Made by a program: the position numbers and the translations under genes
Shown here: in pieces, positions 26,505-53,970 of the stretch
Layout: every line of letters starts with the position of its first letter
How positions within the stretch are numbered: position 1 is the stretch's first letter
The notes under the pieces: model-generated
The model's input: the letters and a program-made list of their open reading frames with translations, nothing else
Told to the model about the DNA's origin: nothing
Database searches by the model: none
Assembly: GCA_958295805.1 (NCBI GenBank)
Contig: OY282373.1
Location: forward strand, 1,273,001 to 1,337,000
Source: an uncultured Nitrospirales bacterium
Lineage (GTDB): Bacteria; Nitrospirota; Nitrospiria; Nitrospirales; UBA8639
Direction of reading: 5' to 3'
Length of the DNA stretch: 64,000 nt

Positions 26505-26527
26505 CTGCGCCATCTCATGGCGCCTAT

Positions 26528-27045
26528 GTTCAATGACTTTGTCGCAGCGCGAGCGTATCGCGCCTGGCAGCAGGCCGATTTGCTGAGTCGTTGTTGGCCG
26601 CATGAGATGCGGCCGCGACAGAGAGCTGATGTTCAATGGCGTTGTCGCGGCGCGATCTCATCGCGCCTGTCGGCACGCGAATGTGGTGAGTTGTTATTGG
26701 CCGGATGAGATGCGGCCGCGACAGAGAGCTGATGTTCAATGGCGTTTGTCGCGGCGCGATCTCATCGCGCCTGTCGGCACGCGAATGTGGTGAGTTGTTA
26801 TTGGCCGGATGAGATGCGGCCGCGACAGAGAGCTGATGTTCAATGGCGTTTGTCGCGGCGCGATCTCATCGCGCCGGGCAGCACGCGAATGTGGTGAGTT
26901 GTTATTGGCCGGATGAGATGCGGCGGCGACAGAGAACTGATGTTCAATGACTTTGTCGCGGCGCGATCTCATCGCGCCTGTCGGCACGCGACTTTGCTGA
27001 GTCGTTGTTGGCCGCATGAGATGCGGCGGCTACAGAAGGCTGATT
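26528..27045. repeat. Five-copy ~104-bp tandem repeat with paired palindromes
   Basis: Units begin with GTTCAATG at 26528, 26631, 26734, 26838 and 26942, a period of 103-104 bp. Each unit carries two palindromes: GGCGCGATCTCATCGCGCC and a GGCCGGATGAGATGCGGCC-type arm. The first is the reverse complement of the 19-bp palindrome found near 39841, 50989 and 53364-53701. The inner copies (2-4) are nearly identical and the outer ones diverge. No gene is present, though open frames run through in every direction. Confidence 0.92.
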
Positions 27046-33405: not shown

Positions 33406-33903
33406 GTGCCGGAGACGCGGGATAGAGCGCCGGTGACGCCCAAGGCTTGTATCGTCGATACCAATGTCATCGTTTCGGGTTTGATCGGCGCGGACCCGAA
33501 CGGCCCCCCGGCGCGAATCCTGGACGCCATGCTTGATGGTGACCTCCTGTACCTCATGTCAGCCGACTTGCTCACCGAGTATTCGTCCGTGTTGCGCCGT
33601 CCGCGTCTCGTCCGATTCCATGGACGGACGGACGACGAAATCGACCGGCTACTTACCGATTTGATCGCCAATGCCCTATGGCGCGAGCCTATCACCAGCG
33701 TCGATGCCCCCGATACCGGCGACACCCACCTGTGGACGCTGCTCGCCAGCCATCCGCAAGGACAACTCGTCACGGGTGACCGGCTTCTTCTCAATAATCC
33801 TCTGAGAGGTGCGTCTGTGATTTCCCCTCGTCGTTTCGTGGATACATTTTTATCGCCGAAAGAGACCCCTTCCCGTAGTATTGGGCCAGACACGGTAGGG
33901 TAG
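33406..33903 (+). CDS. PIN-domain toxin (COG1569-like)
   Basis: The 165-residue protein has the PIN nuclease pattern: D in CIVDTNVIVSG, E in LTEYSSVLRRPR, D in DTGDTHLWTLL and D in LVTGDRLLL. These acidic residues bind the metal for RNA cleavage. GTG 33406 or GTG 33433 could be the start; both keep the domain whole. The last ~25 residues extend beyond the usual domain end. It is paired with the RHH antitoxin just upstream. Confidence 0.82.
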   Translation: MPETRDRAPVTPKACIVDTNVIVSGLIGADPNGPPARILDAMLDGDLLYLMSADLLTEYSSVLRRPRLVRFHGRTDDEIDRLLTDLIANALWREPITSVDAPDTGDTHLWTLLASHPQGQLVTGDRLLLNNPLRGASVISPRRFVDTFLSPKETPSRSIGPDTVG

Positions 33904-33965
33904 GTTATCGTTGGGGTAGGCGGACAGAAAGTGTCGGATTTCGCCAGTCTCATCCAACCCACCGG

Positions 33966-34286
33966 CTAGGCCACCTTCGTTTCCTGGGGCTTGGCCTGTA
34001 CCGTCAGTTTCAACCCAACGCTCTCCAACATCGCCTCAAGGGTAGAAAAGCGAGGATTGCCCTTGCGGGACAACGTGCGGTACAGGCTCTCACGGCTCAG
34101 TTGCGTCTCCCGGGCGAGCCGTCCGATGCCGCGAGCCTTGGCGACGTCACGGAGGGCCAACAGAAAGGTCTCAGTCCCTTTTTCGGATTCGTCCTCCAGT
34201 GCCGCGTTCAAATACGCCGCGGCTTCTTCGGGGTCTTGGAGGTCCTGATAGAGGATGTCTTCATACGGAACGGTTCGCTTTGGCAT
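33966..34286 (-). CDS. HigA-like (COG3636) antitoxin
   Basis: The 106-residue protein starting MPKRTVPYEDIL has a C-terminal HTH typical of putative addiction-module antidotes (IGRLARETQLSRESLYRTLSRKGNPRFSTLEAML). ATG 34286 has a GGGAGAT site and starts 4 bp after the toxin stop; the longer frame from 34322 overlaps the toxin. It is likely both repressor and antitoxin of the pair. Confidence 0.88.
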   Translation of the reverse strand: MPKRTVPYEDILYQDLQDPEEAAAYLNAALEDESEKGTETFLLALRDVAKARGIGRLARETQLSRESLYRTLSRKGNPRFSTLEAMLESVGLKLTVQAKPQETKVA

Positions 34287-34290
34287 AGGC

Positions 34291-34584
34291 TTATCTCCCG
34301 TTATAGTCGGCCCAATACTCATGAGCCTTTTTGATATCCGTTGCTTGTGTTCGCTTCGTTCCCCCGTACAAAAGGAGAATGCAACGGTCGTCTTGTCCGA
34401 TGTACACGCGGTATCCTGGGCCGATGTCTATCCGCAACTCCACCACCCCGTGCCCGACTGATCGATGATCTCCCGGATTTCCCAAACGGAGCCGCGCGAT
34501 CCTGACGCGAATGCCGTTTCGCACTTTCTGGTCCGTCAGTTTGCGCAGCCAATCCGCAAACGGGGTATGCCCATCGGCTGCCAC
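34291..34584 (-). CDS. RelE/HigB-type toxin, possibly short at the N-terminus
   Basis: The 97-residue protein has the family core PFADWLRKLTDQKVRNGIRVRIARL, ELRIDIGPGYRVYIGQDD and ILLLYGGTKRTQATDIKKAHEY. The only in-frame start is GTG 34584. Family-like residues (VAAYV) continue upstream with no start codon before an in-frame stop, so the natural N-terminus may be damaged. A dispersed repeat begins about 70 bp upstream. Antitoxin follows 4 bp later. Confidence 0.8.
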   Translation of the reverse strand: MAADGHTPFADWLRKLTDQKVRNGIRVRIARLRLGNPGDHRSVGHGVVELRIDIGPGYRVYIGQDDRCILLLYGGTKRTQATDIKKAHEYWADYNGR

Positions 34585-34654
34585 GTATGCGGCTACCCGC
34601 CGCGTCCGCGGGCCCGTGATTCATTCTGCCCTGCTCTGTCATGCTTCCCTTCTC

Positions 34655-34753
34655 TGTCATTCTGAGCGAAGCGAAGAATCTGGTTCGTTCCCGAACCGGG
34701 TCCGCCCATGAGGATAGGGAGACAAGCAGATCCTTCGCTTCGCTCAGGATGAC
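34655..34753. repeat. AGCGAAGCGAAG-family inverted repeat
   Basis: Arms TTCTGAGCGAAGCGAAGAAT (34659-34678) and TCCTTCGCTTCGCTCAGGA (34731-34749) face each other across ~50 bp. This is the main identifiable structure in the 469-bp gap before the Cas13a gene. The rest of the gap (34760-35053) is AT-richer and must hold the Cas13a promoter, but no hexamer pair with good spacing was found. Confidence 0.8.
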
Positions 34754-35053
34754 AAGGGAGGGAGGAGAACAGGGGAGGACCAGAGGGTAAAGGAGGATCG
34801 TGAACACGCTCCTTGTTTGGTTGTCTTCGGTGTCTAAGTATGCTGCTAACAATGGAGGATCGTGTCTAGGATTGTATATAAGTCCGAGCGTAAGAATGGA
34901 GGTATAAAGGTATTAAATGAGAGCGAAGATGACAAGTTCCTTACCGATCCTGTAGGTGTCCTATTGGCTGATGTAGCCATCCGTATTCAACTTATCGGCA
35001 AACGAACTTGACGAAAGCCTTTCACAAAGGACCAGATATAACTGGAGGCCGAC

Positions 35054-38000
35054 ATGCTGATTATCAAGCCGTATGGTAGAAGTCACACGGAGTTTGACGA
35101 CGGGAAAACTCCCAGAAGGAAAATTCGCAGAAACCAGACTCCCGATGTCCTGCAAAACACCCTCGTTGACGTTAAAGAGTTTGCAAAAACCCATCCCGAA
35201 CTCATCATCGCGCAATGGATTTCTGCCATTGACAAAATTGCGACCAAGCCTCACGGCAACAAGAACCCGACACCCAAACAGCGACGCTTCCGTGAGAAAA
35301 TCGGTAAAGCCGCATTTAACCTCATGACTCAGAAGGAGTTTCCCGACGTGTCCGGCAGGAAAGAGGAACTCGAAAGGTTGTGGCAATCAAAGCTTCATCC
35401 ATACGAGGCCAATGAAAAGACAAATAAAAATCCAAATCCAAACAAACCCCCGTCGCCAAAAGGTCGTTGGTACGAAAGGTTTGCAGGTGACGTGAAACCC
35501 TATGAGGTTGATGCCGCGGAAATTGCTAAGAAAATTGAACGCCATCTTTACGAAAAGGAATACCGGATCAAACCGGACAGACCAGACAAAGGCCAAGGCC
35601 GAATAGCGGCCAGGGCCGAGAGCATTGCCAAGAGCGTACCGGCGCAGTTGTCGCAGTTCCCGGACGGAAGCCACCCCTGGTCGGAATGCCACAAGGAAGA
35701 GTACAAAAAGGCCGGTGACGTTGCGACCGAGATACATCGAAAGGCCTTGGAAGTGGAGAAAGATCAGCATGGCCGAGGCATGTTTTCGGTACGGGACGTT
35801 GCGCCGATTCTGTACGACCAGTACGGCAAACTATTCAGAGATGGAGAGAAGCCTCTTCCTGTTGCCGACGCCTGCGAGAGGTTTCCCGGATTATTCAAGC
35901 TTCATCGTGCCGTCAAGGACACCTACACCCGCATCCTCAAGAATCACAGAACCCTCAAGAGCAAGAAAAAGCGGTCCGTGTCCCATGCCCTTCCAGCCAG
36001 CATGGAGAGCCTGTTCCGTCTGGTCGAAGCCAAATCGGACAATCGCGATCTCAATGCCCTCGTGCGTCTTGGCAAGATCATCCACTACGAGACCACCCCC
36101 GAGTCCGGCGAGGATACGCCAAGCAACGTCGTCGCCGACAGGCCAGATGACCTCGAAGGCAGCCGATACCGAACCAGCGAGGGCCAAGCGGAGATCAAGC
36201 GCACCGAAGCCTTCGTGCGCGTGTGGCGCAATACCATCGCGCTTGCCGCACGGACGCTAACGGACTGGGCGGACCCCGACGGAAAGATCGGCGGCGACAT
36301 CTTGTTGAAAGTCGAGAAGGCGACTGGCGAGAAATTCGACACAACCGCCTACGGCAAAAAGCTCCCCTTCCTGTTTGGCAAGCAGTCCGGTCCGTTTGCG
36401 AGGGAGGACGACTGTTTCAGAAAATCGGTGCTGCGCTTGGCCCTGAAGGGATGGGCCGAACTGCGCCACTCATCGTTTCATTTCAAGGGACGTGGTGCTT
36501 TCGTCAAGGCATTGAAGGAGAGTTTCACAAGCGCCGAAGACGACGCTGTTGGCGTTGTGCGTGGACTCCTGAAAGACGACCTTGATGGACGACGAGACCG
36601 ATTGATCGCAGTCCTTCAGGCCGCACACGTCGAACATTATTTCGCTCAAGAGCATCTCAAGGCGGTCGTTGATGCCGTCGTCAACGCAGAGTTGCGGCAA
36701 TCGCCTCTACCTCGATTCCGCCGCGTCCTGGACCGCGCAAAGAACGCTTGGAACCGCCAACTCTACATCCTGCGTCTACCGCCGCCCGACAATCGGGCCG
36801 AACTCGAAAAACCGGGACGTCAGTGTCGATACGTGACCGTAAAGACCCTGTACGAACGGGCCTTTCCGGCGTGGTTGGAAAGACAATCCGCCGCAACGTT
36901 GAACAGATGGATCAAGCGTGCGGTTGAACGCACAACTGCGGCCGCAAAATCCATCAACGAATTGGCCATCGCTAGGGCGGCCAGCCTGATCCGACTGGGC
37001 GACGGAGAAGGCATTGCGCATTTCTTCGATCATCTGTCCGCGGCGACGGCAACCGAACTTCGCGTCCAACGCGGCTACGACAGTGACGCGGACAATGCAC
37101 GAAAACAGTCCAAATACATTGATGACCTGCGGTGCGACGTGGTGGGGCAGGCGTTCGAGGAGTACTTGAAGACGGCCAAATTGTCTTGGGTACTGGACGA
37201 TCTGGGCGATGGATCGCTCCCGGAGAAGAAGCGCAGCAATCTGGATGACGTTTCGCAGCCGGCATCGAACCCGACCCAAGAGAAGATGAAAGATTGGGAG
37301 GCCGTTCTGTACTTCCTGCTTCATCTCGTGCCGGTGGATGCGGTCGGCCGTTTGCAGCACCAGCTTCATAAGTGGTCCATCCTTGAAAAGAAGAGTGCTG
37401 TGGCAGTCAAAGAACGGACATCCAGCTTGGCAGACTCTACAGGACGAATCTTCGAACTCTACCTTGACATGCACGACGCCAAGTTCGAGGGCGGCGAAGG
37501 CATGATCGGCGCCGAGGCACTCAAGAGTCTGTTCAAGTCTAAGGAGGTGTTTTCCCGGGCCTGTCCTGGTCAGCCGGGCCAGGACGCCGACCGATACGTG
37601 CCCTGGCGCGGTCTGCGGGAGATTCTGCGGTTCGGTTGTCTCAGACCGTTGATGCCGATTTTTCAGGAACATGTCATTAAGGCCGAGAAAGTGGACGAAT
37701 TGACTAACTGGGAAAACGTGTCGGACGGCGACTCTCGCATTGCTAAACAGCAGAAGGAACGGGAAGAACTTCATACGAAATTGGTCAAGAAGAATAGGAC
37801 TTCCGAGGAAGACAAGACAGCCTATTGCAAGGCCCTTGCCGACGTGGTCCGACATCGGCATCTCGTTGCTCACGTTCGTCTCAACAATCATGCGCGTCTG
37901 CATGGCCTGTTGATGGGGGTTCTTGGACGCTTGGTCGATTATGCCGGGTTGTGGGAGCGCGATCTGTATTTCACCACGCAGGCACTTGTCTGGCTTCGGA

Positions 38001-38641
38001 AAAAAAGTCAGGGGGATGTTTTTCAAGACAAGGGACTTGAATTTCCGAAGAATGGTCAAATCGTCAAGGCGCTCAGAAAACTTGAGAATCCAGGCGACGA
38101 CGGGAAGGCGATTGTTGAGCAACTGAAAAGACTGTTCGGAGAGAATTTTCTGGATGGCAAATGCGGTGCTGCTTCCGTTCGCAACAACCTGATGCACTTC
38201 AACATGTTGCAAGACAAGAAACCGATTCTCAACCTGACCGAAACCGTCAACGACACGCGAAGGCTCATGGCCTACGACCGTAAACTGAAGAACGCGGTCT
38301 CCCAATCAATCAAGGAAATGCTGGCGCGGGAAGGACTTGACCTGACGTGGGAGATGAGGGGGCATCGGCTCGAATGTGCGAAAATCAAGGTGCGGCAGGC
38401 CATTCACCTGAAGAACGAGAGAATCAAGGAAAATTTGCACGGCGAGCCGTTCGTCAAGATGGCGGCGTCCTTGTTCGGCGGCGAGCAAGAGCCGTCGAAT
38501 GATGACGTTCTTTCGGTTGACCTGGACAAGATCCAATGGGACCGGCAGCCCGGACAGAATCCAAAAGGCGAGTGGAAAACTCATCGGAATCGGAGCGAAA
38601 ATCGTGGAAATAAGGGCAATTCTTCGCCGAGGAAAAGATAA
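35054..38641 (+). CDS. cas13a: Cas13a (type VI-A CRISPR RNA-guided RNase)
   Basis: The 1195-residue protein carries two HEPN R-x4-H motifs: RHSSFH (R471-H476) mid-protein and RNNLMH (R1043-H1048) near the C-terminus. This is the spacing of Cas13a; Cas13b has HEPN motifs near both ends. Segments resemble my recollection of Rhodobacter capsulatus Cas13a: IAQWISAIDKI (52-62), YDSDADNARKQ (675-685), GRLVDYAGLWERD (958-970) and AYDRKLKNAV (1073 on). No alignment was run. It should process crRNA, bind complementary RNA, then cut target and bystander RNA. TGGAGG lies 5 nt before ATG 35054. The array starts 35 bp after the stop, same direction. No cas1/cas2 or accessory gene is nearby. Confidence 0.93.
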   Translation: MLIIKPYGRSHTEFDDGKTPRRKIRRNQTPDVLQNTLVDVKEFAKTHPELIIAQWISAIDKIATKPHGNKNPTPKQRRFREKIGKAAFNLMTQKEFPDVSGRKEELERLWQSKLHPYEANEKTNKNPNPNKPPSPKGRWYERFAGDVKPYEVDAAEIAKKIERHLYEKEYRIKPDRPDKGQGRIAARAESIAKSVPAQLSQFPDGSHPWSECHKEEYKKAGDVATEIHRKALEVEKDQHGRGMFSVRDVAPILYDQYGKLFRDGEKPLPVADACERFPGLFKLHRAVKDTYTRILKNHRTLKSKKKRSVSHALPASMESLFRLVEAKSDNRDLNALVRLGKIIHYETTPESGEDTPSNVVADRPDDLEGSRYRTSEGQAEIKRTEAFVRVWRNTIALAARTLTDWADPDGKIGGDILLKVEKATGEKFDTTAYGKKLPFLFGKQSGPFAREDDCFRKSVLRLALKGWAELRHSSFHFKGRGAFVKALKESFTSAEDDAVGVVRGLLKDDLDGRRDRLIAVLQAAHVEHYFAQEHLKAVVDAVVNAELRQSPLPRFRRVLDRAKNAWNRQLYILRLPPPDNRAELEKPGRQCRYVTVKTLYERAFPAWLERQSAATLNRWIKRAVERTTAAAKSINELAIARAASLIRLGDGEGIAHFFDHLSAATATELRVQRGYDSDADNARKQSKYIDDLRCDVVGQAFEEYLKTAKLSWVLDDLGDGSLPEKKRSNLDDVSQPASNPTQEKMKDWEAVLYFLLHLVPVDAVGRLQHQLHKWSILEKKSAVAVKERTSSLADSTGRIFELYLDMHDAKFEGGEGMIGAEALKSLFKSKEVFSRACPGQPGQDADRYVPWRGLREILRFGCLRPLMPIFQEHVIKAEKVDELTNWENVSDGDSRIAKQQKEREELHTKLVKKNRTSEEDKTAYCKALADVVRHRHLVAHVRLNNHARLHGLLMGVLGRLVDYAGLWERDLYFTTQALVWLRKKSQGDVFQDKGLEFPKNGQIVKALRKLENPGDDGKAIVEQLKRLFGENFLDGKCGAASVRNNLMHFNMLQDKKPILNLTETVNDTRRLMAYDRKLKNAVSQSIKEMLAREGLDLTWEMRGHRLECAKIKVRQAIHLKNERIKENLHGEPFVKMAASLFGGEQEPSNDDVLSVDLDKIQWDRQPGQNPKGEWKTHRNRSENRGNKGNSSPRKR

Positions 38642-38676
38642 TTTCTTGCATGATGACAAGCACTTATGCCATAGCG

Positions 38677-39900
38677 GTTCGAGATGACCCCCAAATGAAG
38701 GGGGACTACACCATGAAACATTCGCTCAACCGCGCCAAAGACGGTTCGAGATGACCCCCAAATGAAGGGGGACTACACCTCTCGATCAGGTTGCCCATGC
38801 GTCTGGGTGGTTCGAGATGACCCCCAAATGAAGGGGGACTACACCCCCACCAATCACTTCAACACCCACCGATAGGTTCGAGATGACCCCCAAATGAAGG
38901 GGGACTACACCACCGAAAACGGTGCCGTGCTCATCGTCGGCGTTCGAGATGACCCCCAAATGAAGGGGGACTACACCCCTGGCCGCCTTTGTCCATGCGC
39001 ATGGCCCAGTTCGAGATGACCCCCAAATGAAGGGGGACTACACCCTAATTCATTGAGCGTATCGAGTGCGCCTGGTTCGAGATGACCCCCAAATGAAGGG
39101 GGACTACACCTCCTTTTCTTTCGATTGTTGACGGCGCATTGTTCGAGATGACCCCCAAATGAAGGGGGACTACACCCCTTTGGATCGCAACGCCGAGGGA
39201 TTGGATGTTCGAGATGACCCCCAAATGAAGGGGGACTACACCATGAGACCTTTACCGGTGAAAGGATTTAGCGTTCGAGATGACCCCCAAATGAAGGGGG
39301 ACTACACCTTTGCTCGACTGTAGGCATAGCAATTCTCCGTTCGAGATGACCCCCAAATGAAGGGGGACTACACCCGCGGGCGATGGCTCGGCACTTGTTG
39401 ATGTGTTCGAGATGACCCCCAAATGAAGGGGGACTACACCAGCGTGAGACTCGCCACTGTGCCAGGCTCTGTTCGAGATGACCCCCAAATGAAGGGGGAC
39501 TACACCAAAATCAGCCATGAGAATTACCTCCCTATAGTTCGAGATGACCCCCAGATGAAGGGGGACTACACCTCCAATAGCGAATGAGGTAACTGGTCTT
39601 TTGTTCGAGATGACCCCCAGATGAAGGGGGACTACACCTTGACCAGCGTACACAGCGACCAATCGTCTGTTCGAGATGACCCCCACATGAAGGGGGACTA
39701 CACCTGCAAAACGATTTTGGCTGCCGCACGACCAAGTTCGAGATGACCCCCAATGAAGGGGGACTACACCGTCAAGATCGACAAAGGCATCTTGCAGCCG
39801 AGTTCGAGATGACCCCCAAATGAAGGGATTACACCCGTTCGGCGCGATGAGATCGCGCCCTACAAGTTCGAGATTCCCAAATGAAGGGGGATCTGAACCA
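38677..39900 (+). CRISPR. Type VI-A CRISPR array, 18 repeats plus a degenerate 19th
   Basis: The 36-nt repeat is GTTCGAGATGA, then stem CCCCC, loop AAATGAA, stem GGGGG, then ACTACACC. Repeats 1-13 (38677 to 39506) are identical. Repeats 14 and 15 (39537, 39603) and 16 (39669) differ by one loop base; 17 (39736) lacks one A; 18 (39802) is short; a remnant lies at 39866-39900. Eighteen spacers are 30-31 nt. Decay at the far end puts the leader side next to cas13a. The hairpin position and the GGACTACACC-like 3' end resemble Cas13a repeats, so crRNA should be read on the plus strand with the repeat 5' of the spacer. No cas adaptation genes flank it. Confidence 0.97.
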
Positions 39901-40065
39901 TCTCAGGGATAATCCGATTGCAGAACGACGGTGCTTGGTGTGGTGGATTGAGGTTGTAGGTAAAAAGTGAGGAGGGAACGCAGATCAAGCGGGTCGGTAG
40001 ACCCCTAAGACGTACCGACCACCGTCACTCTCTCCGGGTAGACTGTTCTTTCGGAGGGAAACGAA

Positions 40066-40359
40066 TTAAGCAAGAGGCTGGACAGTCAATTTGAATCCAA
40101 GTGCTTTTGCTACTTTGGCTACGGTGGAAAAAGAGGGATTTCCTTCGCTTGACAAGGCCTTATACAAGCCTTCACGGGTCAGGCCGCTATCGCTGGCGAG
40201 TTGGCTCATATTGCGGGCGCGGGCGATCACTCCTAATGCGTGGACAATGAATGCAGGATCATCTCCCGCCTCTTCCAGGCAGGCTTCGAGGTAAAGCTGA
40301 ATATCTTCGTCGGTTTTGAGATATTCCGCTGAGTCCCAGCGGGTTGTTGTAACAGGCAT
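40066..40359 (-). CDS. HigA-like antitoxin, orphan
   Basis: The 97-residue protein has the same family core as the antitoxin at 33966 (MSQLASDSGLTREGLYKALSSEGNPSFSTVAKVAKALG). It is intact, with ATG 40359 just after the stop of a toxin remnant, so the pair has lost its toxin. The GGAGAT preceding the start is retained. It may still act as a repressor or protect against related toxins. Confidence 0.85.
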   Translation of the reverse strand: MPVTTTRWDSAEYLKTDEDIQLYLEACLEEAGDDPAFIVHALGVIARARNMSQLASDSGLTREGLYKALSSEGNPSFSTVAKVAKALGFKLTVQPLA

Positions 40360-40362
40360 AGT

Positions 40363-40446
40363 TTAATCTCCTAATTTGCTGGCTAGTTCTTGGGCCTTTG
40401 AGACGTCGGCCTGTTTTTCACCGTCACAGAGTAGTACGACAACGCG
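40363..40446 (-). pseudogene. C-terminal remnant of a RelE-family toxin
   Basis: Read on the minus strand the segment gives VVVLLCDGEKQADVSKAQEL and then ASKLGD-stop, the end of a RelE/HigB-like toxin directly before its antitoxin. All upstream parts are missing; the sequence joins the 3' end of hsdS in another frame near 40440. This marks a deletion or recombination joint. Confidence 0.75.
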
Positions 40447-41299
40447 GCCCGTTCGGCTCCAGGGCCTCATGCAGCAGCACGTCAAGCAGCCGCTCCTGCA
40501 CATCATCCCCAGTAGCCAAGTTCCCTTCCAGCCGGTCGCAGACGGTCATCAGTTCATCGACCTTGGTAACGATGCGGCGTTGTTCGGGAAGGGGCGGGAG
40601 GGGGACTTGCCAATTCTGAGCAAGACCAGCGGTCAATTCGACTTGTTTCGTAGAGCCTGCTGCCCGGTCTTCAATGATGCCGTAAACATGGTCGGACCGA
40701 AGCCAAGTCCGAATATATTCTTGAACAACATGAGGGCATCGAACGAGTGTTACATGGCTATCGCAAACCAGTTTGACAGGCGGACAGGTAACGCGAACAA
40801 CTCTCCCAATTGTTCCTGTTCCAGTCGAATTCCATAGCAAATCTCCGTCACGCAAGAATCTGTAGGCTTCATAATCTTCCAGTGATGCTGATGTAATTTC
40901 TTTTGCAACGCTTAAGTCGAGTCCGCTCCATTGTACACATTTCTGAGAAACGACCGGAATTCCTGTACCTGTTGCATACATGGGAGATTTTCCCCTTTGC
41001 ATGTACGTTACGATATTCCCAATGCGTGCCCAGCACCAACCTTCGGGTATGGCAAAAATTTCTTCATCTTTGTTCAATTCTTTAAGAACCGCCACTCTCT
41101 TAATCTTCCCCGTTTTCTCCAACCGTGCCTTTTCCTTCGCAATCCGCTTCAGCAACTCCGTCGCCGGCTCATCCTTCGGGTCCTGCGGCACCAACTTCCC
41201 TCGCACGGCCAGGTCCAGAATGAACCGCCGCAGCCGTTGCACGGACTCCGGCGACTGAATCAGCCGGTCGAAGTTGCTGAACAGCGTCTTGATGCTCAT
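40424..41299 (-). CDS. hsdS: Half-length HsdS specificity subunit
   Basis: The 291-residue protein has a conserved HsdS N-terminus (SVQRLRRFILDLAVRGKLVP and DEPATELLKRIAKEKARLEK), one target-recognition domain (~90-225), and the usual C-terminal conserved block (PPLPEQRRIVTKVDELMTVC, LLDVLLHEALEP). Full S subunits of this family have two recognition domains and are about twice as long. The last residues (after ALEP) read into the toxin remnant. Its ATG overlaps the small RHH gene by 4 bp. It may dimerise as a half subunit, or be a deletion product. Confidence 0.83.
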   Translation of the reverse strand: MSIKTLFSNFDRLIQSPESVQRLRRFILDLAVRGKLVPQDPKDEPATELLKRIAKEKARLEKTGKIKRVAVLKELNKDEEIFAIPEGWCWARIGNIVTYMQRGKSPMYATGTGIPVVSQKCVQWSGLDLSVAKEITSASLEDYEAYRFLRDGDLLWNSTGTGTIGRVVRVTCPPVKLVCDSHVTLVRCPHVVQEYIRTWLRSDHVYGIIEDRAAGSTKQVELTAGLAQNWQVPLPPLPEQRRIVTKVDELMTVCDRLEGNLATGDDVQERLLDVLLHEALEPNGPRCRTTL

Positions 41300-41517
41300 A
41301 TCTTCAGTGTTTCGCGTACTTCGGTAGCCGAATAGACCGGCTCCGTCCCGGTGAGGACACGCTCCAGAACGTCTATCGCAAGATAGTAATCTTCCAGGTC
41401 TTCAATGCCGCGTTCGATAAGTTCACGCAGGTAGAACGCTTTGCTGCGGCCGGTCTGTGACATTGGAAAGTTGATCTGCTGTTTGGTGTCGGGAGTGAGT
41501 TGAATCGCGGTTGGCAT
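41296..41517 (-). CDS. RelB-type ribbon-helix-helix antitoxin
   Basis: The 73-residue protein contains MSQTGRSKAFYLRELIERGI followed by EDLEDYYLAIDVLERV, the ribbon-helix-helix and toxin-binding tail of RelB/DinJ-like antitoxins. A relE would normally follow; here hsdS follows with a 4-bp overlap instead. It may be a leftover antitoxin that now serves as a leader gene or regulator of hsdS. Confidence 0.78.
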   Translation of the reverse strand: MPTAIQLTPDTKQQINFPMSQTGRSKAFYLRELIERGIEDLEDYYLAIDVLERVLTGTEPVYSATEVRETLKI

Positions 41518-41629
41518 GTTGTCTTTTCTGGTTTTGTGCTTGGCTGTACTTTTTTATCATATATTTTCTCGGAGGGTCGGGGTCGGGAGTATTGTAGGTT
41601 GCTTGGTTCTTCACGGTCCTGCCGCATCT

Positions 41630-41702
41630 GGAACCCCCCACCGGCTCGCCGGCGGGCTTCGCCCTTGGCTTGCCGACTCCCCCTCAAGGGGGGAGTGATA
41701 GG
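41630..41702. repeat. Single copy of the 149-bp repeat core
   Basis: CCCCCCACCGGCTCGCCGG, a TTGGCTTGCCGACTCCCCCT stretch and the hairpin CTCCCCCTCAAGGGGGGAG match the core of the five-copy repeat at 46649-47312. It lies in the 271-bp gap between the RHH gene and the hsdM relic. Confidence 0.85.
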
Positions 41703-41788
41703 CATCGGGTTTGCCGACTTTCTGAGGGGATGGCAAAGGGGTACGGCCATGCGGGGAAGTTGGGGTATGTCTTACTGGGGTTGCTCAT

Positions 41789-41930
41789 TTATCGTGTCAG
41801 TGCCTTCGTTAATATTGTCTTCAGTCGGTTGCGTAAGGTGCGGTCTTGGCCTCGGCGGTGGTCAGTCTGGCCAGCAACTCTTTGGGGTTGCCGTGGTTGG
41901 TCTCTGCGGTGTGCGGGTTTTTGACGTTTA
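41789..41930 (-). pseudogene. 3'-end relic of a second hsdM
   Basis: On the minus strand the segment reads VKNPHTAETNHGNPKELLAR and then LTTAEAKTA, and after a frameshift TLRNRLKTILTKALTR followed by a TAA. The intact hsdM at 42436 ends with IKNPHTAQADHGNPEELLAK and TLRERLKTILGEALGR. The relic is similar but not identical, so it came from a different allele, and the rest of that gene is gone. Confidence 0.85.
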
Positions 41931-41961
41931 TGACAGCCTGTCCGCGCGTTGAAGCGCCGTA

Positions 41962-42147
41962 TCAGGTTGCTGCGGGGTCCTCGTCCGCGGATCTCTTTGC
42001 GGTCTCAATCAATCGATTCTGGTACTGCTTCTGCATTTCCATGTAATAGAGTACCAACTGTGTAGGGTCATGACCAAAGTGCGCGGAGATGCGGTGCCGC
42101 ACTTCTCGAATCTCGTCAATGACCGTGTCACTCAAGTTCTGTTTCAT
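41962..42147 (-). CDS. Small protein coupled to a PIN gene
   Basis: The 61-residue protein starts EIREVRHRISAHFGHDP near residue 12 and resembles short partners encoded just downstream of some PIN toxins, although I cannot name a family. It has a good GGAGGGACCG site and overlaps the truncated PIN frame by 4 bp. Intact in itself. Confidence 0.6.
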   Translation of the reverse strand: MKQNLSDTVIDEIREVRHRISAHFGHDPTQLVLYYMEMQKQYQNRLIETAKRSADEDPAAT

Positions 42148-42338
42148 CGGTCCCTCCTAAGAGTTCCAGCGGGGTTACTCACGCAGGCACAAAAAGAGGT
42201 GACGAGTTCGTAGTTCTCCGGCGCAGTGTCCCACCATCGCCGGGTCCATTCCCTGCGCGCCACGATGTCGGGGGCAGAACGCTTTTCATGGTAAAAGCTG
42301 GGGATTGAGGTCTCAACATAGACGCGTGGTTTTGTCAT
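42144..42338 (-). pseudogene. PIN-domain protein, truncated after ~49 residues
   Basis: The first part (MTKPRVYVETSIPSFYHEKR and DIVARREWTRRWWDTAPENY) is a normal PIN N-terminus. After ELVTS the frame turns into unrelated residues and stops, so two-thirds of the domain and later catalytic acids are missing. An internal deletion that kept the next gene's ribosome-binding site is the simplest reading. Confidence 0.75.
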
Positions 42339-42435
42339 ATCGGGAAGATACCACCCTCAGCCTTTGAACAACAATCATGACTAAAGCGAGCCATCCCAAA
42401 AACAGCTTCGCCGGTTTTAGCAGTGTACTTGGTGC

Positions 42436-43893
42436 TCATCGCCCCAGCGCCTCCCCCAGTATCGTCTTCAACCGTTCCCGTAAGGTTGCGGTCTCTGCCT
42501 CGGCCGCGGCCAGCTTCGCCAGCAACTCCTCCGGGTTGCCGTGGTCGGCTTGTGCGGTGTGCGGGTTTTTGATGTCGAGGTTGTAGCCGCGTGCTTTGAT
42601 GTCGTCCGCGGTCACTTTCCAGGCGCGGTCGGTTGTTTTGCGGCCTTTGCGTTGTGGGCCGCCCCACCAGTTGATGCAGGGTTGCAGGTGTTCCAGCCGG
42701 ATGGGTTTGGTCATGGAATAGGCTTTTTGGCCTTCGGGGACGTGGTGTTCGTAGAACCAGATTTTTCGGGTCGGCTCGCCTTTCTCGAAGAACAGCAGGT
42801 TGGTGCCGATGGAGGCGTAGGGTTTGAAGACGGAGTTGGGCAGGCGGACGATGGTGTGGAGGTTGCACTCTTCCAACAGGTGTTCTTTGAGGCGGGTCTT
42901 GACGCCTTCGCCGAACAGGGAGCCGTCGGGGAGGACGACCGCGGCGCGCCCGCTCGGTTTCAACAGTCGGACGATGAGGGCCAGGAACAGGTCTGCGGTT
43001 TCCTTGGTGCGGAAGTGCTGGGGGAAGTTGCTTTCGATGCCGTCTTCTTCTTTGCCGCCGAAGGGCGGATTGGTCAGCACAATATTGACCCGGTCTTTCT
43101 TTTCCCAGCCGACGTAGGGGCGGGCCAGGGTGTTGTCGTGACGCACGAAGCTGGGATCCTCAATGCCGTGCAGGAGCATGTTGGTGACGCACAGCATGTG
43201 CGGAAGTTGTTTTTTCTCAACGGCGCGCAGGCCGGCTTGCATTTTCCGTTCGTCCCCGGGCCGCTTGACGTAATGCTCGCGCATGTGGGCCAGCGCGCAG
43301 GTCAGGAACCCGCCGGTGCCGCAGGCCGGGTCGAACAGGGTTTCGCCGGGCTTGGGGTCGATGCGGTCGGCCATGAACGCGGTGACCGCGCGCGGGGTGT
43401 AGTATTCGCCGGCGTTGCCCGCGGATTGCAGATCGTTCAAAAGCTGTTCGTAGATGTCGCCGAAATGCTGGCGTTGGGTCAGGTTATTGAAGTCAACGGC
43501 GTTGATTTTGTTCACCACTTGGCGCATGAGTTGGCCGGATTTCATGTAGTTGTAGGCGTCCTCGAACACGTCGCGCACGACGCGGCCGCGATTGTCCGGC
43601 CGGCCGGTGGTCCGGAGGTTTTTCAAGGCGGGGAAGAGGTCGTCGTCAATGAAGGTGAGCAGTGCTTCACCGGTGATGCCTTCGGGGTTTGCGGCCCAGG
43701 TATGCCACTGGAACCGTTCCGGGATGGGGGAGGTGTAGTCTGCCTTCATCAGTGCCAGTTCCTGGTCCTGATCGTCGATGATCTTGAGGAAGAACATCCA
43801 GCACAATTGGCTGATGCGCTGGGCGTCGCCGTCCACGCCGGTGTCCTGGCGCATGACGTTCTGGATGGATTTGACCAGGGTGCGGACGGACAT
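42436..43893 (-). CDS. hsdM: Type I restriction-modification methylase
   Basis: The 485-residue N6-adenine methylase has the HsdM N-terminal helical domain (to ~150), GEYYTPRAVTAFM, SAM motif I FDPACGTGGFL (187-197) and catalytic NPPF (275-278). It methylates the target site as M2S and protects host DNA. Start ATG 43893 is 3 bp after the hsdR stop. The C-terminal helix would contact HsdS. Its usual hsdS partner is separated from it by a PIN relic, a small gene and an hsdM relic. Confidence 0.95.
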   Translation of the reverse strand: MSVRTLVKSIQNVMRQDTGVDGDAQRISQLCWMFFLKIIDDQDQELALMKADYTSPIPERFQWHTWAANPEGITGEALLTFIDDDLFPALKNLRTTGRPDNRGRVVRDVFEDAYNYMKSGQLMRQVVNKINAVDFNNLTQRQHFGDIYEQLLNDLQSAGNAGEYYTPRAVTAFMADRIDPKPGETLFDPACGTGGFLTCALAHMREHYVKRPGDERKMQAGLRAVEKKQLPHMLCVTNMLLHGIEDPSFVRHDNTLARPYVGWEKKDRVNIVLTNPPFGGKEEDGIESNFPQHFRTKETADLFLALIVRLLKPSGRAAVVLPDGSLFGEGVKTRLKEHLLEECNLHTIVRLPNSVFKPYASIGTNLLFFEKGEPTRKIWFYEHHVPEGQKAYSMTKPIRLEHLQPCINWWGGPQRKGRKTTDRAWKVTADDIKARGYNLDIKNPHTAQADHGNPEELLAKLAAAEAETATLRERLKTILGEALGR

Positions 43894-43896
43894 GAC

Positions 43897-46338
43897 TCAG
43901 GCGGTCTCCTGGTAGAGAGCGGATTGCAGGTCGCGGACGGCTTCTATGAATTGATCCTTGCCGCCGAAGGCTTTGAGCAACTGTACCGGCGTGCCGAGGG
44001 TGTTCAACGGCGGGATGCGCAGCACGTTGGCGTCGTCGAGGTTGAGCACGCCTTCGTCGGCGTACTTGTCGAGCAGCGCGTTGAGCACGGTGCGGGCCTG
44101 GTATCCGTACTTTCTGAACACGTTGCGTTTTTGGACGTTCGCGGCGCGCTCGCGGCGTGTCAGCGGCTTGGCGTCAAAGGCCACGTGGCAGATGAGATCG
44201 AAGGGGTCGAGATTCTTGCCGAGTTCCTCGGCGATGGTATCGAGTGCCAAGCCTTCGGCCGCAAGTTCGTCAATGACGGCTTGTTTGCGTTCGGCGGCCT
44301 TCCATCGCTTGAGAAAGTCATCAAGGCTGGCGAAGCGTTTCTTCAGCGCCTTCTTGGTGAAGTCGCGCAAGGACTCGGTGACGAGTTTGCCGTGTTCGTC
44401 AAGGTATTGCACGCGCTGGGCAATGATTGTCGCGTCGATGCCGTCAACGTAAACCTTGCTCTTGATCGCGGCGTCAGGCTGGAGCCCTGGTGAAATTTCG
44501 ACAATGGTTTCGTCGTCGGCCGGTTCAGGCGGGAGAGGGGCTTCGCCGTCCTCCGTGCGCGGCGCGTGGTCGGGCGGAGTGATGGGATCGCCTGTTCCCG
44601 GTTCGTATATCTGCACCGGCTCGCCGTCGAAGTCCGGGTCGGCAAAATGGCTGGTTGCGCCCCGGAAGTCCATCAAGGTGAAGTAGAATTTGTGGGTGTC
44701 CTCGTGGACGCGGGTGCCGCGTCCGACGATCTGTTTGAATTCGGTCATGGACCCGACTTCGCGGTCCAGCACGATCAGCCGGCAGGTCTGGGCATCGACG
44801 CCGGTGGAGAGCAGCCGCGAGGTGGTGACCAGCACGGGGTATTTGGATTCCGGGTCAATGAAGTTACCGAGTTGCGCTTGCCCTTCGGCATCGTTGCCGG
44901 TGACGCGCATGACGTAGCGGTGGTTGTCGCCGGCCAGGTCGGCGTTCTCGTTGATGAGCGCCTGTCTTATGCGGGCGGCGTGTTCCTGGTCGACGCAGAA
45001 GATGATCGTTTTCTGAAAGCGGTCGCCGCTTTCTTTCAGGAATCCGGTGACGTTGCGGGCAACGGCCCGTGTGCGGCCGTCCAGCACCAGGGTTTTGTCG
45101 AAATCCTTGGGGTTGTAGACGCGGTCTTCTACCGGTTCGCCTTCCCGTGACAGTTGACCTTTTTCCGGGCGGTAGCCTTCCACGTCCCGGTCGATGTGAA
45201 CTTTGATGACTTTGTAGGGGGCGAGGAAGCCGTCGCGGATGCCTTGTTTCAGGGAGTAGGAATAGACCGGCTCGCCGAAGTAGTCGATGTTGGAGACGTA
45301 TCGGGTTTCCTTGGGCGTGGCGGTCAGGCCGATCTGCGTGGCCGTGGAGAAGTATTCCAGAATTTCCCGCCAAGCCGAATCCTCCTTGGCGCTGCCGCGG
45401 TGACACTCGTCAATCACGATCAGGTCAAAAAAGTCAGGTGAAAACTCACGGAAAATCTTCTGGTCTTCCTCCGGGCCGGTGATGGCCTGATAGAGACCCA
45501 GATAGATTTCATAGGCGGCGTCGATGCGGCGTTTTTTGCCGGCGGCGGTCAAGTCCTCCGTGGACCCGTCCCGGCGTTCGATGGTTTTGGCGTTGGTCGA
45601 GAGCTTGGCCATGGCCGCACCAAAGGGACGGAAGTCGTTGACCATGGTCTGATCCACCAGCACGTTGCGGTCGGCCAGGAACAGAATCCGCTTCTTGCGG
45701 CCCGCCTTCCACAGCCGCCAGATGATCTGAAAGGCGGTGTAGGTTTTGCCGGTTCCCGTGGCCATGACGAGCAGGATGCGGTCGCGGCCTTTGGCTATGG
45801 CCTCTATCGCGGTGTTGACGGCGTTGATCTGGTAATAACGGGGGGCTTTGTCGCTGCCGTCTTCGTAATAATCCTGAAGCACGATGGCTTCGGCTTCGGG
45901 TGTCAACCCTTTCCACGTCCGGTAGCGTGCCCACAGGTCGTTTGGTGATGGGAAGGCATCGAGGGCAAGCGTCGTTTCTTTTTCGGCGCCTCCGCCGGTT
46001 CGGTCGTGGAACACGAAGCCGTCGCCGTTGGAGGAGAAGACGAAGGGAATCCCCAGCGTCTCGGCGTAGTCAAGTGCCTGTTGCATCCCGTCGCCGACGG
46101 CGTGGGCGTTGTCCTTGGCCTCAATCAGCGCGATGGGGACGTTGGGCTTGTAGGACAGCACGTAGTCGGCTCGCTTGGCCTTGCCCCGGCTGACCAGCTT
46201 GCCGCGTACGATGATGCGGCCTTTGGTGAAGCTGACTTCTTCGCGGATTTGCCCCATCTCATCCCACCCGGCTTTGCGCAGGGCCGGGGTGATGAACTTG
46301 GTGCAGACGTCGCGTTCGCTCAGGCTTTTCTTCTCCAT
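43897..46338 (-). CDS. hsdR: Type I restriction endonuclease, EcoEI-like R subunit
   Basis: The 813-residue protein has an N-terminal nuclease domain (D58, E73-A-K75 in LIEAKDNAH), an SF2 helicase/translocase with Walker A ATGTGKT (193-199) and DECH (310-313), then motif VI-like QIVGRGTRVHED and an EcoEI-type C-terminal region. The length matches the EcoEI (type IB-like) class. It cuts unmethylated DNA after translocation in an R2M2S complex. All catalytic motifs look intact, so the R-M system's weak point is the short HsdS. Confidence 0.95.
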   Translation of the reverse strand: MEKKSLSERDVCTKFITPALRKAGWDEMGQIREEVSFTKGRIIVRGKLVSRGKAKRADYVLSYKPNVPIALIEAKDNAHAVGDGMQQALDYAETLGIPFVFSSNGDGFVFHDRTGGGAEKETTLALDAFPSPNDLWARYRTWKGLTPEAEAIVLQDYYEDGSDKAPRYYQINAVNTAIEAIAKGRDRILLVMATGTGKTYTAFQIIWRLWKAGRKKRILFLADRNVLVDQTMVNDFRPFGAAMAKLSTNAKTIERRDGSTEDLTAAGKKRRIDAAYEIYLGLYQAITGPEEDQKIFREFSPDFFDLIVIDECHRGSAKEDSAWREILEYFSTATQIGLTATPKETRYVSNIDYFGEPVYSYSLKQGIRDGFLAPYKVIKVHIDRDVEGYRPEKGQLSREGEPVEDRVYNPKDFDKTLVLDGRTRAVARNVTGFLKESGDRFQKTIIFCVDQEHAARIRQALINENADLAGDNHRYVMRVTGNDAEGQAQLGNFIDPESKYPVLVTTSRLLSTGVDAQTCRLIVLDREVGSMTEFKQIVGRGTRVHEDTHKFYFTLMDFRGATSHFADPDFDGEPVQIYEPGTGDPITPPDHAPRTEDGEAPLPPEPADDETIVEISPGLQPDAAIKSKVYVDGIDATIIAQRVQYLDEHGKLVTESLRDFTKKALKKRFASLDDFLKRWKAAERKQAVIDELAAEGLALDTIAEELGKNLDPFDLICHVAFDAKPLTRRERAANVQKRNVFRKYGYQARTVLNALLDKYADEGVLNLDDANVLRIPPLNTLGTPVQLLKAFGGKDQFIEAVRDLQSALYQETA

Positions 46339-53052: not shown

Positions 53053-53970
53053 TACGTCATCTCCTTTTCCAGTTCCACTGCCCCGATGATACCATCCTGC
53101 CCCATCCTAGCCGTGGGCTGCAATCTTTGGTACGATTCCTCATCCTGTCTTTCACACTCTGTAGTTCTTTCTGATTCACAATAAGAAGATGAGCCTCATT
53201 TCAGATATAGACGGAGAGGAATCCCTATTCTTTGGGATCGTTGTGGCTCTCTTTTTCTTCGTTCCTCCGTAGCTGCGCCATCTCATGGCGCATTGTCATG
53301 AGATTCGAGACTCGTCATGAGATTCGAAACGGTCCTACATTTTGTGTGAATGTTGAGGGGGGAGGCGCGATAAGATCGCGCCGCTACGGACTTGGCGTGA
53401 GATTCGAAACGGTCCCGAATTTTGTGTGAATGTTGGGGGGGAGGCGCGATAAGATCGCGCCGCTACGAATTTGTCATGAGATTCGAAACGGTCCCTAATT
53501 TTGTGTGAACGTTGAGGGGGGAGGCGCGATGAGATCGCGCCGCTACGGATTTGTCGTGAGATTCGAGACGGTCCTAAATCTTGTGTGAACGTTGAGGGGG
53601 GAGGCGCGATAAGATCGCGCCGCTACGGACTTGGCGTGAGATTCGAGACGGTCCTAAATCTTGTCTGAATGTTGGGGAGGGAGGCGCGATGAGATCGTGC
53701 CGCTACGAACGATGGGGCGGGAATCGAGTACATTCAATAAATCAGGATGCCAGTCAAAGCTACTTGAGAGCGAGGCGACGCTTGCCCTGAGTCTCGAAGG
53801 GAAGAATCTTCAGTGTGTCGGCCTGTCCTACGACAGGGGACTTAGATTCTTCGCTTCGCTCAGAATGACATTTGGAGGATGACATTTTCCCCGTAATTCG
53901 GCGTCTGGCGGTAATTTTTGCAGTCTCCGGTGGCCGACTGGAAGGGGGATGAAACGTCTGGTGAATTTCT
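53053..53970. repeat. Intergenic palindromic-repeat region, copy 2 (five units)
   Basis: No gene is supported here. Five units with the GGCGCGAT(A/G)AGATCGCGCC-type palindrome start at 53364, 53443, 53523, 53603 and 53683, a period of ~80 bp. The fifth has CGTGCC in place of CGCGCC. Copy 1 has only two. An AGCGAAGCGAAG-family arm (TTCGCTTCGCTCAGAATGAC) closes the block near 53850. Confidence 0.92.

Follow-up and report, generated by a model that had tools for sequence, protein, structure and literature searches.

The window, which is the whole 64,000-nucleotide stretch of DNA analysed here, comes from an uncultured Nitrospirales bacterium whose genome is a single contig of 2.9 Mb. It carries a cas13a gene that is followed, after a short interval, by a CRISPR array. 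The features discussed below are the following:

35054..38641, + strand: cas13a, an open reading frame of 1195 aa with a TAA stop codon at 38639-38641
38642..38676, + strand: compact leader of 35 bp between the stop codon and repeat 1, conserved in register
38677..39899, + strand: CRISPR array of 19 repeats and 18 spacers of 30-31 nt, with decaying repeats at its 3' end
38677..38712, + strand: first direct repeat, 36 nt, GTTCGAGATGACCCCCAAATGAAGGGGGACTACACC
38713..38743, + strand: newest spacer (spacer 1), matching the coding strand of the host icd gene at 31/31 positions
39802-39835 and 39866-39899, + strand: degenerate terminal repeats around spacer 18 (39836-39865)

The product of the reading frame at 35054-38641 was identified as Cas13a by the NCBIfam model NF038188, which matched over its whole length with 790 bits (cut-off 150), and PADLOC gave the same call. 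The best PDB match was the Cas13a of R. capsulatus (7os0, E 1e-101). Both HEPN motifs were intact, with RHSSFH of HEPN1 (R471/H476) aligned to R464/H469 of 7os0 and RNNLMH of HEPN2 (R1043/H1048) aligned to R1052/H1057. The residues responsible for pre-crRNA cutting in the R. capsulatus enzyme are R1085, N1089 and H1113 (PMC8776769), and these aligned without gaps to R1076, N1080 and H1104. With its processing residues kept, the Cas13a of the window looks able to cut pre-crRNA. The effector score, the two HEPN RxxxxH motifs, the processing residues and the adjacent array are all those of a member of type VI-A.

The array lies on the same strand as cas13a and displays the short repeat stem, the GGGGACTAMAC-like 3' end and the ~30-nt spacers of VI-A arrays; its repeat has the 3' end GGGGGACTACACC, as VI-A 5'-handle repeats do. 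Near-identical copies of the repeat occur 16 times in the genome, all of them in this array. The repeats are identical close to cas13a, carry one change each from 39537 onwards and then show deletions at 39736, 39802 and 39866. This decay at the far end indicates that the growing end of the array faces cas13a. From the processing described for the R. capsulatus enzyme (PMC8776769), Cas13a would be expected to cut repeat 1 near 38683-38684, 4-5 nt before the CCCCC/GGGGG stem. A comparison of the spacers with phage records gave no match, and the repeat pattern was not found in viral contigs. The oldest spacer, spacer 18 (39836-39865), holds the palindrome GGCGCGATGAGATCGCGCC, which is present exactly or nearly so at more than 12 places in the genome. 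Within the window, it also occurs at 26649, 26753, 26857, 26960, 50990 and 53523, where the copies sit within tandem arrays of 104-bp units (26526-27044) and 80-bp units (53318-53707). The locus is most likely an ordinary type VI-A CRISPR-Cas13a system with a very compact leader.

Cas13a was not found in 58 relatives, and of 395 sampled genomes from the phylum this genome was the only one to have it; plasmid and phage records contained none. Given the lack of a counterpart in the relatives and in the other sampled genomes, the locus was probably acquired horizontally, and for the same reason the phylum sample offers no close alleles for comparison. The gene and its array are situated in a defence island, flanked by toxin-antitoxin genes (a PIN toxin, a HigB/HigA-like pair and a second HigA-like gene) and by a type I restriction-modification system (33406-34584, 40066-46338).

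The preliminary description of this DNA placed the first repeat 35 bp after the cas13a stop codon, and this distance was confirmed, as the stop codon ends at 38641 and repeat 1 starts at 38677. When species genomes were searched with the C-terminal part of Cas13a, 46 loci were obtained, to which viral contigs added two; the gap statistics cover the 33 loci in which the stop codon and the first repeat could both be placed. The gaps ranged from 2 to 636 bp with a median of 89 bp, and 9 of the 33 were 40 bp or shorter. Gaps close to that of the window were observed in L016 and L017 (35 bp each), L022 and L027 (36 bp each) and L025 (38 bp). A gap of 35 bp is, therefore, not unusual among VI-A loci. 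In three loci the first repeat almost adjoins the cas13a stop codon, namely L055 (gap 2), L058 (gap 5) and L028 (gap 7); this first repeat is degenerate in both L028 and L055.

Transcription of the array was considered in terms of terminators and promoters. No intrinsic terminator was detected between the cas13a stop codon and repeat 1, and a terminator was found in the gap of one of the 33 VI-A loci, against 0.6 expected. A consensus promoter scan over 34500-40450 returned no site (2.6 expected), and a sigma70 scan of 22 leaders with E. coli weights did not place the window gap above chance (p 0.50). When the sigma70 weights were calibrated on the regions upstream of 30 host tRNA genes (TTGACA, TAgAAT), the scan gave p 0.69 for the gap, p 0.74 for the last 500 bp of cas13a and p 0.77 for the region upstream of cas13a. 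As no promoter was seen before cas13a, which must be transcribed, the negative result is a weak one. For the 3' end of cas13a, where the preliminary description had considered a promoter, none was recognised in the last 500 bp, by a scan that was equally blind before the gene.

In other VI-A loci, signals were identified within the gap. Of eight Bacteroidota loci, six (L047, L049, L053, L054, L056 and L057) have one copy of the motif TAnnTTTG at a distance of 59-63 bp from repeat 1 within the gap, where 0.85 were expected. We take this motif to be the Bacteroidota -7 element, and in these gaps it is the likely promoter of the array. Immediately ahead of the repeat, L026, L034 and L040 have a TTGACA or TTGTAA site with matching spacing (p 0.002-0.03). 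The R. capsulatus array that directly follows cas13a is served by a reporter-tested promoter of its own, which is co-regulated with that of cas13a (PMC11089165). A promoter of its own in the gap is a habit of the VI-A family elsewhere.

These results bear on the proposal that the array is promoterless and depends for its transcription entirely on the cas13a mRNA, whose 3' tail it would form, with Cas13a cutting its own transcript and thereby freeing the crRNAs. The crRNA supply would then be tied to the effector mRNA, which the cutting could destabilise. The proposal agrees with the rarity of terminators in VI-A gaps and their absence here, with the absence of a recognised sigma70-like promoter both from the gap and from the final 500 bp of cas13a, with the conserved processing residues and with the occurrence of VI-A gaps of 2-7 bp. 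However, the promoter scan was also blank before cas13a, in other VI-A loci the equivalent gap contains a promoter for the array (the Bacteroidota loci; PMC11089165), and in L021 a related leader block is found beside the repeat even at a gap of 636 bp. We consider it rather unlikely that the array is transcribed in this way only. Read-through as such is plausible and is not needed for explaining the short distance: with no terminator in the gap and the processing residues conserved, read-through followed by cutting in repeat 1 is mechanically plausible. A leader promoter and read-through may operate together. The suggested regulatory coupling of crRNA supply to the level of the effector is purely inferential. 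If read-through does take place, it would offer a simple natural means by which the quantity of a toxic RNase is coupled to that of its guides. L055, L058 and L028 are better test cases of read-through than the window.

A natural self-limiting circuit can also be envisaged, with the promoterless array in the cas13a 3' UTR and Cas13a cutting repeat 1 of its own mRNA. Each cut would release crRNAs and remove the 3' end of the message, thus holding effector and guide in a fixed proportion and allowing Cas13a to cap its own level. We regard such a circuit as improbable.

A CRISPR leader can be recognised by sequence conservation at the growing end of its array, and such conservation was found here. 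Across seven loci, the 35 nt before repeat 1 had a mean in-register identity of 42%, compared with 26 +/- 1.7% in shuffles, none of which (0/500) reached the observed value. The conservation was strongest with L016, L017, L019 and L022 and was lower with the others. The leaders of the window and L017 were identical at 26 of 35 positions (74%) with no indel, against 55% at the four-fold degenerate sites of cas13a; the corresponding values were 63 and 50% for the window and L019, and 69 and 58% for L016 and L017. The remaining close pairs lay at or above the four-fold value by less (57 vs 49% and 57 vs 56%), and the excess appears modest in any single pair. In L019, which has a gap of 50 bp, the block keeps its position relative to the repeat and not to the stop codon. 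In L021, a related ATGACAAG..TTATG block adjoins repeat 1 with partial conservation (p 0.007 for window-L021 and p 0.003 for L017-L021, uncorrected for the number of pairs). When the leader block was sought with up to three mismatches elsewhere in this and related genomes, scattered chance-level matches were obtained besides the cas13a loci. A motif common to the leader and the region upstream of cas13a, GATGACAAG, was dropped as it had p 0.19 and was absent in the relatives.

The newest spacer provides insight into how the array has grown. Spacer 1 matches G000:C1:2171864-2171894, within the monomeric isocitrate dehydrogenase gene icd, in the sense orientation. A chance match of 31 nt is out of the question, and the identity at 31 of 31 positions places the origin of the spacer in this chromosome or one very close to it. 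As the spacer is in sense, its crRNA cannot pair with the icd mRNA, and this would account for the tolerance of the spacer. The leader-repeat junction thus appears to have taken up a spacer in this lineage. A similar picture emerged from L014 and L015, which have seven trailer-end spacers in common and private spacers (3 and 6) at the cas13a end, and whose gaps are identical at 62 of 63 bp. By their sequences, these are sister alleles in which new spacers appear to have entered right behind the common 63-bp gap, with the same polarity as in the window. L014 and L015 (IMG/VR 3300002334) directly adjoin phage portal and terminase genes, and their Cas13a may sit in or beside a prophage.

No cas1 gene is present at the cas13a locus, and none was found near cas13a in the 11 relatives searched. 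The genome has cas1 at four other loci (L009-L012 in G000), each of which adjoins an array with an unrelated repeat; the leaders and repeats of these other CRISPR loci were, by eye, not similar to those of the window. Spacer acquisition in trans, with partly host-derived spacers, has been demonstrated for a VI-B system (PMC8092290). The host-derived newest spacer is the most useful by-product of this analysis, as it makes in-trans acquisition testable for VI-A.

It could be argued that this stretch of 35 bp is neutral spacer DNA, resembling its relatives through common descent only, and the modest excess over four-fold sites in single pairs would fit this. The 74% identity with L017 over 35 bp without an indel, the anchoring of the block to the repeat across differing gap lengths and the apparent uptake of a host-derived spacer at the junction stand against it, and we regard neutrality as very unlikely. 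As judged by its conservation, the gap is a short leader of a kind common to related systems. The preliminary description had held that the array has almost no leader and that 35 bp are too short for one, and this is contradicted by the repeat-anchored block, which also appears to act as an acquisition junction; the 63-bp gap of L014 and L015 appears to show the same behaviour. Requirements for integration are comparably short in other types, namely the initial 41-43 leader nucleotides in the I-E system of E. coli and ~10 nt on either side of the junction in the II-A system of S. thermophilus (both reviewed in PMC8092290), so that 35 bp, alone or extended by a few bases into the gene, can suffice. 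The conservation of the leader could stem from acquisition alone. A VI-B-like mode of action, in which the leader would form an RNA hairpin with repeat 1, is almost certainly wrong here, since the somewhat better folding of the gap region than of shuffles (z -2.3) comes mostly from the repeats' own stems, whereas the consensus fold of five leaders reached -0.4 kcal/mol without a compensatory pair and leader-repeat hairpins are absent in VI-A (p 0.92; PMC13187072). With no conserved RNA structure among these five leaders, the leader looks like a DNA element.

With moderate confidence, we favour the explanation that the compact leader is a spacer-insertion junction and probably the start of array transcription, to which read-through is added. 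The 35 bp after the stop codon, possibly together with the final few nucleotides of cas13a, would form the leader-repeat junction that receives new spacers, with Cas1 presumably supplied in trans from one of the other genomic loci. Transcription of the array would probably begin at the leader block, with a start near or inside repeat 1, as in other VI-A systems. With no recognisable barrier in its way, RNA polymerase that has transcribed cas13a may also continue into the array, and the resulting read-through transcript would be cut by Cas13a inside repeat 1. Such a cut would leave the cas13a reading frame intact with a 3' tail of ~41 nt. VI-A arrays often begin no more than 40 bp from cas13a, and even so little sequence bears a conserved leader beside which a spacer appears to have been added.

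Among known systems, the VI-A locus of R. capsulatus SB1003 resembles that of the window in the branch of its Cas13a, in the array directly downstream and in the three processing residues (PMC11089165, PMC8776769). It differs in that its locus includes cas1 and a second array, both arrays having reporter-tested promoters, whereas the window has one array with no cas1 nearby. In engineered Cas12a tools, effector and array are placed on a single transcript, in which the array in the effector 3' UTR is cut by the effector's own product. The window would have this principle in common with them, although such a transcript is hypothetical here. The Flavobacterium columnare system is unlike the window in being of type VI-B, with guide-repeat crRNAs and with acquisition tested by experiment (PMC8092290). 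The same leader block is found in L016 (an Alphaproteobacteria MAG; Cas13a 58% identical, gap 35 bp), L017 (a Binatia MAG; 60%, 35 bp), L019 (a Binatia MAG; 63%, 50 bp) and L022 (Chelativorans alearense; 46%, 36 bp), which differ in their hosts and have 36-nt repeats similar to those of the window.
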